Shown here one piece after another: positions 6,675 to 34,129 of a stretch of DNA of 39,964 bases (positions are counted from its first letter, which is position 1; every line of letters starts with the position of its first letter). The position numbers and the translations under genes are program-made. This DNA comes from Clostridiaceae bacterium (GTDB lineage: Bacteria; Bacillota; Clostridia; DSM-8532), in the NCBI GenBank assembly GCA_012840245.1, contig DULR01000057.1, forward strand, positions 1-39,964. The letters are read 5' to 3'. The notes below the pieces were generated by a model, which did not search any database, was not told the origin of the DNA, and saw nothing but the letters and a program-made list of their open reading frames with translations.

Positions 6675-7856
6675 TTATCCTTCTTTGTTCTCATAAATGA
6701 GTTTCCCGTCGATAAAAGTCATTTTTACCTTGCTCAGGTAGTCGAAGGGATGCTTCGTATAGATGACCATATCGGCATCCTTTCCAACTTCAAGGCTGCC
6801 TATGCGATTTTCAAGCCTTACGCTCTTTGCAGCGTTAATAGTGATTGCCTTTAATGCTTCCTCCTGTGGCATCCCTTCGCGGTATGCAAGGGATGCGCAT
6901 AACATGAGATGCTGGCTTGGAACGCAAGGGTGATCGCTCATTATGGCTACATCTATTCCTGACCTGGCCAGTATTCCGGGCGCTTTGACTGTCTGATTCC
7001 TGAGCTCGATTTTTGATCTGTCTGTCAGGATAGGTCCCAGAATGACATTATATCCGTTTTCCTTCAATATATCAGCTATAAGCCAGCCTTCGGTGCAATG
7101 ATCCAGGGTCATGTCCAGGTCGAATTCCTTTGCGATCCTGATAGCAGTCATGATATCGTCGGCTCTGTGGGCATGGGCTTTTATCACCAACTCCCTTTTG
7201 ATGACCGGAATGAGCGCTTCCAGCTTCATGTCGAAATCAGGCTTCTCGTTCTCTTCCTTATCTGCTTCGTATTTTTCAAGGTTCTCCAGATATTCTTTTG
7301 CCTTGAACAGCTGCTCTCTTATAAGGGCTGCCGTAGCCATACGGGTCGTGGGAAGCTGATGTTTTTCATGGTAGACTGTTTTTGGGTTTTCCCCGAATGC
7401 AAACTTCATGGCGCATGGAGCTTTGATGACCATCTCGTCCACGCTGCGCCCGTATGTTTTCAGCGCCGCAAACTGCCCTCCTATGACATTTGCGCTTCCG
7501 GGGCCTGTCACGACAGTAGTTATCCCGCTCTGATAAGCCTCGACGAAAGCCCTGTCTCCATGATAAACTCCGTCTATTGCCCTTAAATGGGGAGTTACGG
7601 GATCGGTCATCTCGTTCACATCATCGCCTTCAAACCCTACCGAATCCTCCATCATGCCTATATGGTTATGGGCATCCACCAGCCCGGGCATCAGAAACAT
7701 GCCCTCTGCATCGATCACCGCATCTCCTTCTTCCGGCTCAGGCATCGACGCCATATCGCCCAGATCTGCTATTTTACCGTCCTTCACCGACAAAAATCCG
7801 TTTTCATAGTCCTTACCTGTCATGGTAAGTATTTTTGCGTTCTTAATTAAAAGCAT
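6675..7856 (-). CDS. Amidohydrolase of the imidazolonepropionase-like group
   Basis: A 393-residue metal-dependent amidohydrolase. The N-terminal strand region (LLIKNAKILTMTG) and C-terminal GKDADMVIY form the composite beta-sandwich. The barrel carries the metal ligands: HxH in LVDAHNHIG (about residues 60-70), Lys in CAMKFAFGENPK (possible carboxylated bridging lysine), HAH (IKAHAHRADD), LDHCTEG and the late Asp in IMSDHP. The ATG at 7856 has GGAGG 5 bases upstream; a GTG at 7868 is less likely. The substrate cannot be assigned; bacterial relatives act on cyclic amides, dipeptides or deaminated rings. It heads an operon with tsaE, tsaB and rimI and has no evident link to tRNA modification. 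Confidence 0.85.
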   Translation of the reverse strand: MLLIKNAKILTMTGKDYENGFLSVKDGKIADLGDMASMPEPEEGDAVIDAEGMFLMPGLVDAHNHIGMMEDSVGFEGDDVNEMTDPVTPHLRAIDGVYHGDRAFVEAYQSGITTVVTGPGSANVIGGQFAALKTYGRSVDEMVIKAPCAMKFAFGENPKTVYHEKHQLPTTRMATAALIREQLFKAKEYLENLEKYEADKEENEKPDFDMKLEALIPVIKRELVIKAHAHRADDIMTAIRIAKEFDLDMTLDHCTEGWLIADILKENGYNVILGPILTDRSKIELRNQTVKAPGILARSGIDVAIMSDHPCVPSQHLMLCASLAYREGMPQEEALKAITINAAKSVRLENRIGSLEVGKDADMVIYTKHPFDYLSKVKMTFIDGKLIYENKEG

Positions 7857-7883
7857 CCTGACCTCCACGCCAAATTAGGCTAA

Positions 7884-7943
7884 TTATTTGATGTGACAAT
7901 GTGGAGATATGCTGTGAAAAACAGGTCGACTTACAGCTTTCAC
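7884..7943 (-). CDS. Possible 19-codon leader peptide upstream of the amidohydrolase operon
   Basis: A GTG-started frame of 19 codons (MKAVSRPVFHSISPHCHIK) ends at TAA 27 bases before the amidohydrolase start. It has a full AGGAGG site at 7949-7954, 5 bases before the GTG. The frame and its ribosome binding site overlap alternative pairings: ACAGG with CCTGT, or GTGAAA with TTTCAC. That is the layout of a translated leader, but nothing shows it is expressed. Three histidines and one cysteine lie near the end. The strong ribosome binding site is the main support. Confidence 0.35.
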   Translation of the reverse strand: MKAVSRPVFHSISPHCHIK

Positions 7944-7982
7944 GCAAACCTCCTGTGTCGCCAATGTAATCATAAAATAAAA

Positions 7983-8000
7983 AACAGGTGTTACCCTGTT
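7983..8000 (-). terminator. Terminator-like hairpin just downstream of a promoter
   Basis: On the minus strand AACAGG pairs with CCTGTT around a 6-base loop and is followed by TTTTATTTTATG. It lies only a few bases after the -10 element at 8005-8010, so it may act as an early terminator or attenuator for the amidohydrolase-tsaEB-rimI operon. The stem is short (6 bp). Confidence 0.45.
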
Positions 8001-8004
8001 CTTA

Positions 8005-8013
8005 ATTATAGCA
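8005..8013 (-). promoter_or_regulatory. Extended -10 promoter of the amidohydrolase-tsaE-tsaB-rimI operon
   Basis: On the minus strand TGCTATAAT is a perfect extended -10. The -35 position is poor (TAATCC at a 17-base spacing), as is common for extended -10 promoters. No other good promoter was seen before the amidohydrolase gene. Confidence 0.55.
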
Positions 8014-8039
8014 TGTTTTCTTTATATGGATTACAAAAT

Positions 8040-8360
8040 ATTCTGATTTGGGTGCACACAGCACATCCTGCTGATTCTTTGCTTTGCTCAGGCAAAAATA
8101 TGAGGCGGGCGCAAGGTTTCTCGCGGCAGTGAGCCGATAAACTTCGAAGGAAATGACCACCGAGCGATGACATTATTAGATAAGTTTGAGCGACCCGTAA
8201 GAAAAAGACCACACTTTGGGGCATGACGGAGCGAAAGCGGAGGAATGCCACATCATAGAGGTGACGGATCATACTGACGCAGGTGCTTAAAGGCGAACAG
8301 AGCGAGATTCTTGCGCTCGCCTAAGCAAGAAAGAGTCAAAGTCGAATGAATCAAGGGTTC
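8040..8360. other. Hairpin-rich intergenic block, possible structured RNA or degenerate repeat
   Basis: No credible gene. Several pairings follow one another on the plus strand: CGGGCGC (about 8106) with GCGACCCG (about 8197); inside it AAACTT with AAGTTT; then GGCAT...ATGCC closing an AGCGAAAGCG tip (about 8220-8249); then AGGC-GAGCG with CGCTC-GCCT (about 8290-8322). The block is richer in G and C than the intergenic DNA around it. An 88-codon frame across it on the minus strand has no ribosome binding site. It could be a structured RNA, a decayed mobile element or a genome repeat; I cannot decide. Confidence 0.4.
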
Positions 8361-8364
8361 AAAA

Positions 8365-8393
8365 TGTGCATAGAGGACCGTCCCTAATGCACA
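8365..8393 (-). repeat. GGGACGG-core hairpin repeat
   Basis: TGTGCAT and ATGCACA form the stem around the AGGGACGGTCCTCT core (minus strand). It matches the copy at 39437-39465 at 26 of 29 positions. On the minus strand it is followed by TTGATTCATTCGA, a degenerate form of the tag seen after other copies. Confidence 0.7.
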
Positions 8394-8394
8394 A

Positions 8395-8427
8395 AATGAG
8401 CATGGGGGATGTTCCCCCATGCTCATT
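8395..8427 (-). terminator. Intrinsic terminator of lonA
   Basis: A perfect 15-bp stem (8395-8409 with 8413-8427) with a 3-base loop begins two bases after the lonA stop codon. It is followed on the minus strand by TTTTGTG, so the U-run is short. Confidence 0.8.
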
Positions 8428-8428
8428 A

Positions 8429-10846
8429 TTACATCTCTATTGAAACTGCTGCCTCGTCGGAAGCGTGGTTTATTATCACATCATGAGTCCTGCGTTTCTT
8501 CCTGGCTTCAGGCTTCCTCACCAGAGCGTACCTGATTACTTCATCCATGTGGGAAACAGGGATCAGGCGAATCTCTTTCCTGGTATTCTCCGGAATATCA
8601 TTGATGTCCTTTTTGTTTTCTGTGGGCAGCAATACGGTATCCACACCGGCTCTGTGTGCTGCAAGGACCTTCTCCTTCAGCCCGCCTATGGGCAACACCT
8701 TGCCGCGCAGGGTTATCTCCCCTGTCATAGCCACATTCTTTCTGACAGGTATCCCTGTCAGGGCTGAAATTATAGCTGTCGCAATGGTTATGCCCGCAGA
8801 TGGTCCGTCCTTGGGTATGGCGCCTTCGGGAACATGGATATGGATATCATATTTTTTGTGGAAATCGGGCTCGATCCCATATTCCTCAGCAACAGAACGG
8901 ATAAAGCTTCGTGCTATGCGCGCCGACTCCTTCATCACGTCGCCCAGCTGTCCGGTGAGCTCAAGCTGTCCTTCCCCTGGCATGATATTTACCTCGACAG
9001 GCATGGTATCCCCTCCGACAGGTGTCCAGGCAAGGCCTCTGACTATCCCTATCTCATCCTTTTCAGCCGCCATGTCATACAAATACTTGCGCGGTCCAAG
9101 ATACTCCTTGATGGTGTTCTTCGTTATCCTTACAGATGCCTTCTCACCTGTCACGATCTTCTTCAGCGCTTTGCGTATTACTGTAGCAATTTGCCTTTCA
9201 AGAGTTCTGACTCCAGCTTCCCTGGTATAATAGACCACTATCTCTCTGAGAGCCGATTCGTCGAACCTTACTGCTTTGGATTCAGCGCCGTGGAGCGACA
9301 ACTGCTTCGGAACCAGGTATTTGGAAGCTATATTCAGCTTCTCATCCTCGGTATAGCCTGAAAGGTCGATGACCTCCATCCTGTCCAGAAGCGGTCTGGG
9401 AATAGCTTCCTTGTAATTTGCCGTAGTAATGAACATGACATCCGACAAATCGAACGGCAGCTCCAGGTAGTGATCCCTGAAATCCTTGTTCTGTTCTGTA
9501 TCCAGCACTTCCAGCATTGCAGAGGCAGGGTCCCCTCTGAAGTCACTGGACATTTTATCTATTTCGTCAAGCAGGATCAGCGGATTTGCCGAACCGGCCT
9601 GTCTCAGTGCGTTGATTATGCGGCCGGGCATAGATCCCACATAGGTTCTTCTGTGACCTCTGATTTCGGCTTCATCCCTTACTCCTCCCAATGACATACG
9701 CACATAATTGCGGTTGAGCGCTTCTGCTATGGATTTGGCTATTGATGTCTTGCCCACTCCGGGAGGTCCGACGAAACATATTATCGGGCCATGGAGTCCA
9801 TTCTTCATCTTCCTCACAGCCAGATATTCGAGTATTCTTTCTTTGACCTTTTCAAGACCGTAATGGTCTCTGTCGAGAATCTCCTGAGCAAGGCCGATAT
9901 CAAGCCTTTCTTCGGTTTTCTTTTTCCAGGGCAGTTCCAGGATGATATCCAGATAAGTCCTGATAACACCGCTTTCAGCCGAAGTGGAGTGCATACGGGA
10001 CAATCTCTGGACTTCTTTCAGGGCTTTTGCTTTTACTTCATCAGGAAGGTTTGCCTCCTCGATCCTCTCCCTGTATTCATCCACTTCAGTAGTTACATCC
10101 TGATAATCACCGAGTTCCTTCTGGATTGCCTTGATTTGCTCCCTGAGGTAATACTCCCTCTGATTTTTGTCTATCTGCTGGCGGACTTTTGTCGTTATGC
10201 TTCGTTCTATCTCCAGGATATCATTTTCCTTTGCAAGAATATCCAGAAGCTTTTCAAGACGCCTTTTAGGTGATATCTCTTCCAGAATGACCTGTTTCAG
10301 ATCTATCGGGATCCCAAGATTTGCCGCGATCAGATCAGGAAGTCTTGCCAGATCATCTATATTGGTGATCAGCATGGTGGCGTCAGGCGATATTTTCCCT
10401 GAAAGCTTCGCATATTTCTCAAAATTTTCGATAACCTGTCTTGAAAGTGCCTGTATGTCAGGCCTATTGCTTTGCAGCAGGCGGTCTTTTATCTCTCTTA
10501 CTTCAACTGAGTAAAAAGGCTCATTTCCTGTAAATCTGGTTACTTTTGCCCTCACTATCCCTTCCACCAGGACCCTTATGGTATCTCCGGGAAGTCTGAG
10601 AAGCTGTTTTATATGCGCAACGGTTCCAAACGTGTTGATTTCATCGAATGACGGATCATCTATATTGGGATCTTTCTGTGCAGTCAGAAAAATCCTCTGA
10701 TCTTTAAGCATGGCCGCTTCAATTGCTTTTATTGATTTTATACGGCCTACGTCAAAATGCAGTATCATATGGGGATAAATCACTATCCCCCTCAACGGCA
10801 GCATGGGTATGCCGTAAACTTGCGCAGTTTTAGTTGTTCTAGGCAT
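8429..10846 (-). CDS. lon: ATP-dependent protease LonA
   Basis: An 805-residue cytoplasmic AAA+ serine protease of normal length for LonA. It has the N-terminal LON domain (about residues 10-200, starting [14 protein letters not shown]), a helical region, the AAA module with GPPGVGKTS (about 356-364) and [10 protein letters not shown], and the protease domain with dyad Ser683 ([10 protein letters not shown]) and Lys726 ([14 protein letters not shown]), 43 residues apart. The C-terminal tail is basic ([12 protein letters not shown]). The ATG has AAAGGA upstream. A near-consensus promoter lies at 10926-10954 and a strong terminator follows the stop, so it is probably a single-gene unit. I found neither a CIRCE element nor a CtsR heptad repeat upstream. 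Confidence 0.97.
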
Positions 10847-33868: not shown

Positions 33869-33925
33869 GAGTCGACATGGCAATAATCCCATAGAAAACA
33901 CTCTTAACCCCAGAAGAAACTCACC

Positions 33926-34108
33926 ATTACGGCAGGTCTACCGACTTTGCTTCATCCTCCATGGCACCTTCCCGCAAATTTTGCAGTGGCATACGCCATT
34001 TCGTCAGCTTCACGGTTGCTGGGACAGTCCGGGCTTCTCACCCGGTTCCCTATTAAGCATTCTGTGCGGCAGAAGCAAATTGCTCTCCTGCACGTTTTGC
34101 ACCGTAAT
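33926..34108 (-). ncRNA. Cobalamin riboswitch
   Basis: 183 bases on the minus strand, closed by a perfect 7-bp P1 stem, ATTACGG with CCGTAAT. Inside are family elements: AATAGGGAACCGGGTGAGAA, GCCCGGACTGTCCCAGCAAC, CACTGC, GGGAAGGTGCCATGGAGGAT and the B12 box AGTCGGTAGACCTGCC. It binds a B12 form and controls btuF. The B12 box differs slightly from the AGCCAGGAGACCTGCC form I remember as consensus. Confidence 0.95.
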
Positions 34109-34129
34109 GTATTATTTGATTGCGAATTA

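Follow-up and report, generated by a model that had tools for sequence, protein, structure and literature searches.

Positions 8103-8322 of the window, the 39,964-nucleotide stretch of a Clostridiaceae bacterium genome that we analysed, probably hold one copy of a non-coding, non-autonomous structured mobile repeat whose folded strand would be read by an enzyme acting in trans. The mobile character of this structured repeat follows from its dispersal, its absence from the corresponding locus of relatives, the lack of a conserved ORF, and a fold of stems P1, P2, and P3 that the copies share. Judging from the sequence searches, the repeat family reaches well past one genome, into at least four genera and a second bacterial family. 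It has apparently remained undescribed so far, and no description of the element was found in the open-licence literature searched.

The unit, recognised from the alignment of copies and from the repeat family of its own genome, is near-complete in the window and lies on the plus strand. It is sharply bounded, with edges set by the alignment of near-complete copies, and measures ∼200 to 220 bp. Its flanking genes, both on the minus strand, are a predicted lonA (8429-10846) and a predicted amidohydrolase gene (6675-7868). An earlier note on this DNA had marked 8040-8360 as a hairpin-rich stretch; the stretch is real, and its extent has to be narrowed to the unit given above. The same note had called the stretch richer in G and C than nearby DNA and devoid of a convincing gene, and both statements agree with our results: the G+C content is 0.523 in 8103-8322 versus 0.368 in 7869-8102 and 0.443 in 8323-8428, and no ORF is conserved among the copies. 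A protein-coding origin was rejected because none of the minus-strand frames is open in all copies.

Several small features lie near the element in the same intergenic region. A short palindromic repeat of the GGGACGG type (8365-8393, no strand assigned) adjoins the element and is separate from it; a palindrome of this type also borders a Y1 transposase gene at another site of the genome. Just past the lonA stop, and outside the element, a terminator-like hairpin on the minus strand (8396-8425) was recognised by eye only and was not reported by a pattern scan. Upstream of the amidohydrolase gene, at 7980-8011 on the minus strand, a TGCTATAAT-like -10 box is followed immediately by a small hairpin with a T-run. 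This hairpin, exemplified by GCAGGC..GCCTGC TTT and recognisable by eye in the majority of the relatives inspected (L198 and L202 to L208), could be the terminator of lonA, an attenuator, or a tiny RNA gene. Farther along the window, a cobalamin riboswitch occupies 33914-34116 on the minus strand (89.3 bits).

A DNA search of the 2.9-Mb draft genome to which the window belongs as contig C35 returned 21 matches, 7 of them covering most of the unit at 84 to 100% identity, and the sister species G002, searched with one of its own copies, returned 24, of which 9 are near-complete. Among 148 relatives, the DNA search found a match in 5, all of one genus. A covariance model was then built from alignment A1, a chosen subset of 17 near-complete genus 1 copies from which L007, L008, and L009 had been dropped. 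With the best 6 to 7 candidates per genome scored, it matched at least 8 of 294 genomes, namely, 7 of the 14 members of the genus and G018, which belongs to genus g6. The G018 match is weak, and its sequence itself belongs to a high-copy family of genus g6, with at least 30 copies in G018, at least 30 in G023, and at least 22 in G027. The diverged family was matched in at least 6 of 40 genomes (best 20 candidates per genome scored), and further genera contributed at least 21 matches in G029 (genus g2) and at least 3 in G017 (genus g5). Model R3, built from alignment A4, a chosen subset of 20 sequences that contains no standard genus 1-type copy and only the diverged L072, matched at least 3 of 391 genomes of the class, again with the best 6 to 7 candidates scored. 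It found known genus 1 copies in G002 and two copies in G185, a genome of another family, which are 77% identical over 194 bases. Since few best candidates were scored per genome, the copy numbers are lower bounds and the absences weak; the genomes are mostly drafts in many contigs, and the R3 search of the 391 genomes scored 0 in G000 despite the copies there. A phage or plasmid vehicle was rejected, as phages and plasmids yielded no match and three exact patterns retrieved 0 stretches in viral_contigs.

Folded as a whole, the window copy reaches -74.2 kcal/mol; its shuffled versions average -58.6, and none of 200 does as well (z, -3.45). The opposite strand gives a z of -3.53. The interior without the closing stem folds about as well as its shuffles (z, -0.79), of which 44 of 200 equal it or do better, so the single-sequence stability comes from the closing stem, P1. 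This dominant pairing joins the element end to end, from a left arm at 8104-8124 (8104-8116 plus 8119-8124) to a right arm at 8302-8321 (8302-8307 plus 8309-8321). Within it, P2 pairs 8133-8135 with 8292-8294, and P3 pairs 8187-8196, inside the conserved motif TGAGCGACCCGT, with 8281-8289, the conserved motif GGTGCTTA, which is retained in L072, L073, and genus g6. P4, specific to the genus of the window, is a hairpin at 8220-8249 with GGCAT/ATGCC arms and the four-base tip GAAA at 8233-8236. Both pairings named in the earlier note exist in the sequence; the main end-to-end stem had escaped it. The GGCAT/ATGCC hairpin (8220-8224 with 8245-8249; AGCGAAAGCG tip at 8230-8239) is conserved. The two-part stem AGGC-GAGCG/CGCTC-GCCT (8291-8294 plus 8300-8304 with 8314-8322) is not, since all 9 of its pairs form in the window only and 4 to 7 of 9 form in the 16 other aligned copies.

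The fold is maintained across copies while the letters change. In the family of the window (A1), 93.3% of the structure cells pair, versus 33 to 47% in slid versions, and two-sided changes occur in 11 of 39 pairs, a count that none of 500 shuffles reaches (mean, 4.0). P1 keeps 16 to 19 of its 19 pairs in 17 of 17 copies, with two-sided changes in 9 of the 19, and P2 is short and nearly invariant in this family. P3, in which 90% of the cells are paired and only 1 of 9 pairs has a two-sided change, is the weakest of the three stems because its sequence is conserved with few such changes. In P4, one pair alternates between G-C and A-U from copy to copy (2/17 versus 14/17), and 14 of the 17 copies have GAAA, GTAA, or GCAA, hence a GNRA-like sequence, at the tip, with an extra G after it in one of them. 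The other genera (A4) give a comparable picture: 91.9% of the cells pair, with two-sided changes in 10 of 42 pairs (shuffled mean, 5.2; 2 of 500 shuffles). There, the internal P2 has two-sided changes in 4 of its 8 pairs, and its position is taken by 6 to 9 bp of unrelated sequence that still pair, set between the conserved motifs ATGCTTC on one side and GTGCTTTG on the other. Read from the sequences, the P2 arms are GCC/GGC in the window, AAATTC/GAATTT in G005, GGCAAC/GTTGCC in L072, GGGCGAC/GTCGCCC in genus g6, and CTGTGTTTC/GAAACACAG in G185. The P1 arms of genus g6 are unequal, with a conserved bulge of 3 bases and a second of 1 base.

A tree-aware scan of 18,915 column pairs in 62 sequences (62 of 75 matches, with 13 short or antisense rows dropped; alignment A6 was fitted to model R3) yielded no single significant pair. 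Its top 40 pairs include 6 of the 42 structure pairs, and when the test was restricted to those 42, 4 passed. Covariance analysis had been proposed in the earlier note, together with the view that many degenerate copies with no conservation of pairing would speak against a structured RNA. The copies are indeed many, their pairing is conserved, and P1 and P2 persist through two-sided changes. The covariation of P1 could stem from recognition of the inverted ends as double-stranded DNA. Because the shape is kept while the letters change, the folded form probably matters for the movement or the action of the element.

Evidence for mobility comes from the locus itself. The end of lonA was located in 13 of the 14 genomes of the genus, our own included, and the element is absent from the lonA-amidohydrolase gap in 8 of 8 other members (L198 and L202 to L208), a count that comprises the genomes with both genes in the fetched DNA; in L197, L199, L200, and L201, the amidohydrolase gene was not reached or not found. 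Since all eight readable relatives are without the element, we propose an insertion at this locus, and on the simplest reading of these sequences it would have happened in the lineage of the window. As an alternative to an RNA, the earlier note had suggested an old mobile element. The many dispersed copies and the empty locus of the relatives support the mobile half of that suggestion; the element is not simply old, since copies within its own genome reach 93% identity. Target-site duplication was not detected, flank repeats of 4 or more being found in 2 of 17 and 15 of 60 copies versus 2.2 and 17.7 in shuffles.

The copies also vary in arrangement. Genus g6 contains tandem copies whose short spacers do not vary within a given locus; contig C98 of G023 has three in tandem with 12-base gaps, contig C33 of G018 mixes full and P1-only units, and a right-end fragment precedes one of the G185 copies. 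The P1-only short versions (L057, L118, and L125) are hairpins in which the interior is swapped for a short loop. At one orthologous intergenic site, the element lies in opposite orientations in G018 and G023 (L168 versus L186), which points either to inversion across P1 or to independent insertion. Other repeats accompany the copies: TCATCCTGAGCGAAGCG..GAAGGATCTT, likewise common, often directly adjoins the element (e.g., L002, L003, L037, and L043), and repeats appear to be nested in one another. The spacers between copies in genus g6 (L119, L124, L126, L132, and L141) hold a long palindromic repeat with ends GAACTATTGTACAATA, and four loci of this genus (L127, L139, L140, and L142) carry an insert of ∼45 to 50 bases at the same point of the P1 left arm.

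In keeping with the statement of the earlier note that the stretch matches no known RNA family, Rfam 15 gave no gathering-score match and none credible to the element up to an E value of 10. A subthreshold match to an Rfam microRNA model (E value, 0.009) sits on the lonA terminator hairpin, outside the element. The raiA RNA is similar in length to the element and occurs in Clostridia; its model (RF03072) matched none of 13 genus members, our own genome included, and the single match among 21 genomes fell in another family. For the genus, raiA was therefore excluded.

By type, the element belongs near the MITE-, BOX-, and bcr-like repeats. It has the terminal inverted repeats of a MITE, in the form of P1, and lacks the target-site duplication. 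BOX, ERIC, RU, NEMIS/Correia, and similar small mobile repeats have been described for other lineages. Like them, the element is small, gene-less, intergenic, hairpin forming, and repeated, as far as the excerpted account goes (PMC2229807), and it is set apart from them, on the same account, by its internal stem, whose pairs change on both sides from one genus to another. The excerpt on bcr1 to bcr18 of the Bacillus cereus group presents them as dispersed intergenic repeats, some of them MITE-like, and bcr10 and bcr18 as having a conserved predicted secondary structure for which an RNA function was suggested (PMC3446304). The likeness to these dispersed, structured intergenic repeats is one of description (PMC3446304, in part), and, measured against that partial description, the element differs in belonging to Clostridia, in having three stems folded around unpaired motifs that are conserved, and in extending over four or more genera and into another family. 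Within Clostridium, stem-loop repeats of 31 to 93 bp (Clop-1 and Clot-1 to Clot-3) appear in the excerpt of PMC2267715, with Clop-1, Clot-1, and Clot-3 listed there as intergenic; compared by description only, the element resembles them as a structured repeat in Clostridia and is larger (PMC2267715, in part). It also recalls the REP/REPIN repeats with their RAYT in being palindromic, clustered, and sometimes tandem in genomes that hold a RAYT, and it departs from them, within the compass of the excerpt, in its ∼220 bp versus 20 to 40 bp and in not lying beside RAYT genes (PMC3733652). In place of the 20- to 40-bp palindrome typical of REP/REPIN, the element has ∼200 to 220 bp; P1-only short versions do occur.

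A search for a mobilising partner revealed no transposase-like ORF recurring beside copies among 65 fetched loci, and the clusters of recurrent neighbouring genes proved to be spurious ORFs inside repeats or shared housekeeping-type neighbours. Whole-genome searches for IS families covered Y1 and TnpB. A TnpB partner (IS605/omega RNA) was rejected, as PF07282 was not found in G000, G002, G005, G006, G007, G012, G017, G018, and G023; G008 and G027 have one match each. A reverse transcriptase partner (SINE-like, group II RT) was rejected likewise, PF00078 (RVT_1) being absent from G000, G005, G006, G007, G017, and G018; it is present in G002 and G008 and falls below the cutoff in G012. To the IscB/HEARO RNA family, the element showed no Rfam match. 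Palindromes of the GGGGACGG type, with variable arms, were seen by eye to flank single Y1 genes at L059 (G000 contig C69), L227, L230, L232, and L226 and were not evident at the remainder of the 10 loci inspected; they look like the REPs of this RAYT. Palindromes of the same type lie beside many copies of the element, including at 8365-8393 of the window.

Chance hairpins in G+C-rich intergenic DNA, to which the ordinary stability of the interior and the nonconserved AGGC-GAGCG stem might point, can hardly explain these data, being refuted by the repeat family, its sharp boundaries, and its conserved pairing. A functional structured RNA (a transcript or an mRNA element), selected as RNA and multiplied by amplification of its gene, is possible, and we judge it somewhat unlikely. 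Conserved unpaired motifs combined with changing stems resemble RNA evolution, the covariation of P1 and P2 crosses genera, the P4 tip is GNRA-like in most copies, and G.U cells outnumber A.C cells on the plus strand (46 versus 20 in A1; 53 versus 16 in A4). In 37 genus g6 copies, the G.U excess in P1 and P2 is 25 versus 11 by cells (P = 0.03) and not significant when counted by pairs (16 versus 10; P = 0.33). This excess leans toward a folded plus strand and would do so equally for RNA and for single-stranded DNA. Against an RNA stand the lack of an Rfam family and of any promoter-like site in a pattern scan of 7860-8440; no conserved promoter was found among the copies, and none travels with the element, since the flanks differ right up to P1. 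Nor was a consistent sense orientation to neighbouring genes found: by a crude ORF caller, whose counts are indicative only, 16 of 18 intergenic copies of genus 1 have a downstream gene of opposite orientation, and 22 of 31 copies of genus g6 have an upstream gene of opposite orientation. The structured RNA of the earlier note is supported as structured, through pairing kept across two-sided changes; its action as RNA gains no support from these promoter and orientation results.

That the element is a classic MITE, derived by deletion from an IS with a DDE transposase that binds terminal inverted repeats in double-stranded form, we consider unlikely, even if its ∼20-bp inverted ends (P1), small size, lack of genes, and many copies are as expected of one. 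Target-site duplications do not exceed chance, the bulged arms of genus g6 are unlike simple inverted ends, the internal P2 is conserved, and the flanks share no transposase-like ORF. Y1 enzymes act on hairpins in single-stranded DNA, an activity that would suit the element, and a single search located Y1 genes in 6 of the 7 genomes that bear clear copies and in 4 of 14 further genomes from the family. Mobilisation by the Y1 (RAYT/IS200-like) transposase of these genomes nevertheless seems very doubtful to us: the element lies beside 0 of 10 Y1 loci in the fetched flanks, where the palindromes, if present, are of the GGGGACGG type, and G006 bears the element with no Y1 match.

We therefore return to the mobile repeat with a partner in trans. 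With TnpB, reverse transcriptase, and Y1 unsupported, no target-site duplication, and no recurrent transposase ORF, the data point, short of proof, to a trans-acting enzyme that probably recognises the folded strand. Such an enzyme would recognise either single-stranded DNA or an RNA copy and would copy or move the folded element, after which local arrays may grow by tandem duplication that includes the 12-base spacer. A bolder conjecture, which we advance with little confidence, is that these repeats are class-wide mobile structured RNAs or folded single-stranded DNAs of Clostridia that use no known transposase, TnpB, or reverse transcriptase. The core ACCCGUGAGA..RGACC and GUGCUU, which is held by P2 and P3, might then be the recognition or catalytic part, and P1 might mark the ends of the unit.

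Small structured mobile repeats are a known kind, of which the element is a newly found variant. Small repeats in bacteria are in many cases plain palindromes associated with a known transposase. The element is a multistem fold kept by compensatory change, across genera and in a second family, with no Rfam match and with none of the three enzyme types supported. It offers a clean case in which to ask whether it is the folded nucleic acid that a mobilising system reads, and nature supplies full-length, P1-only, and tandem variants for comparison.
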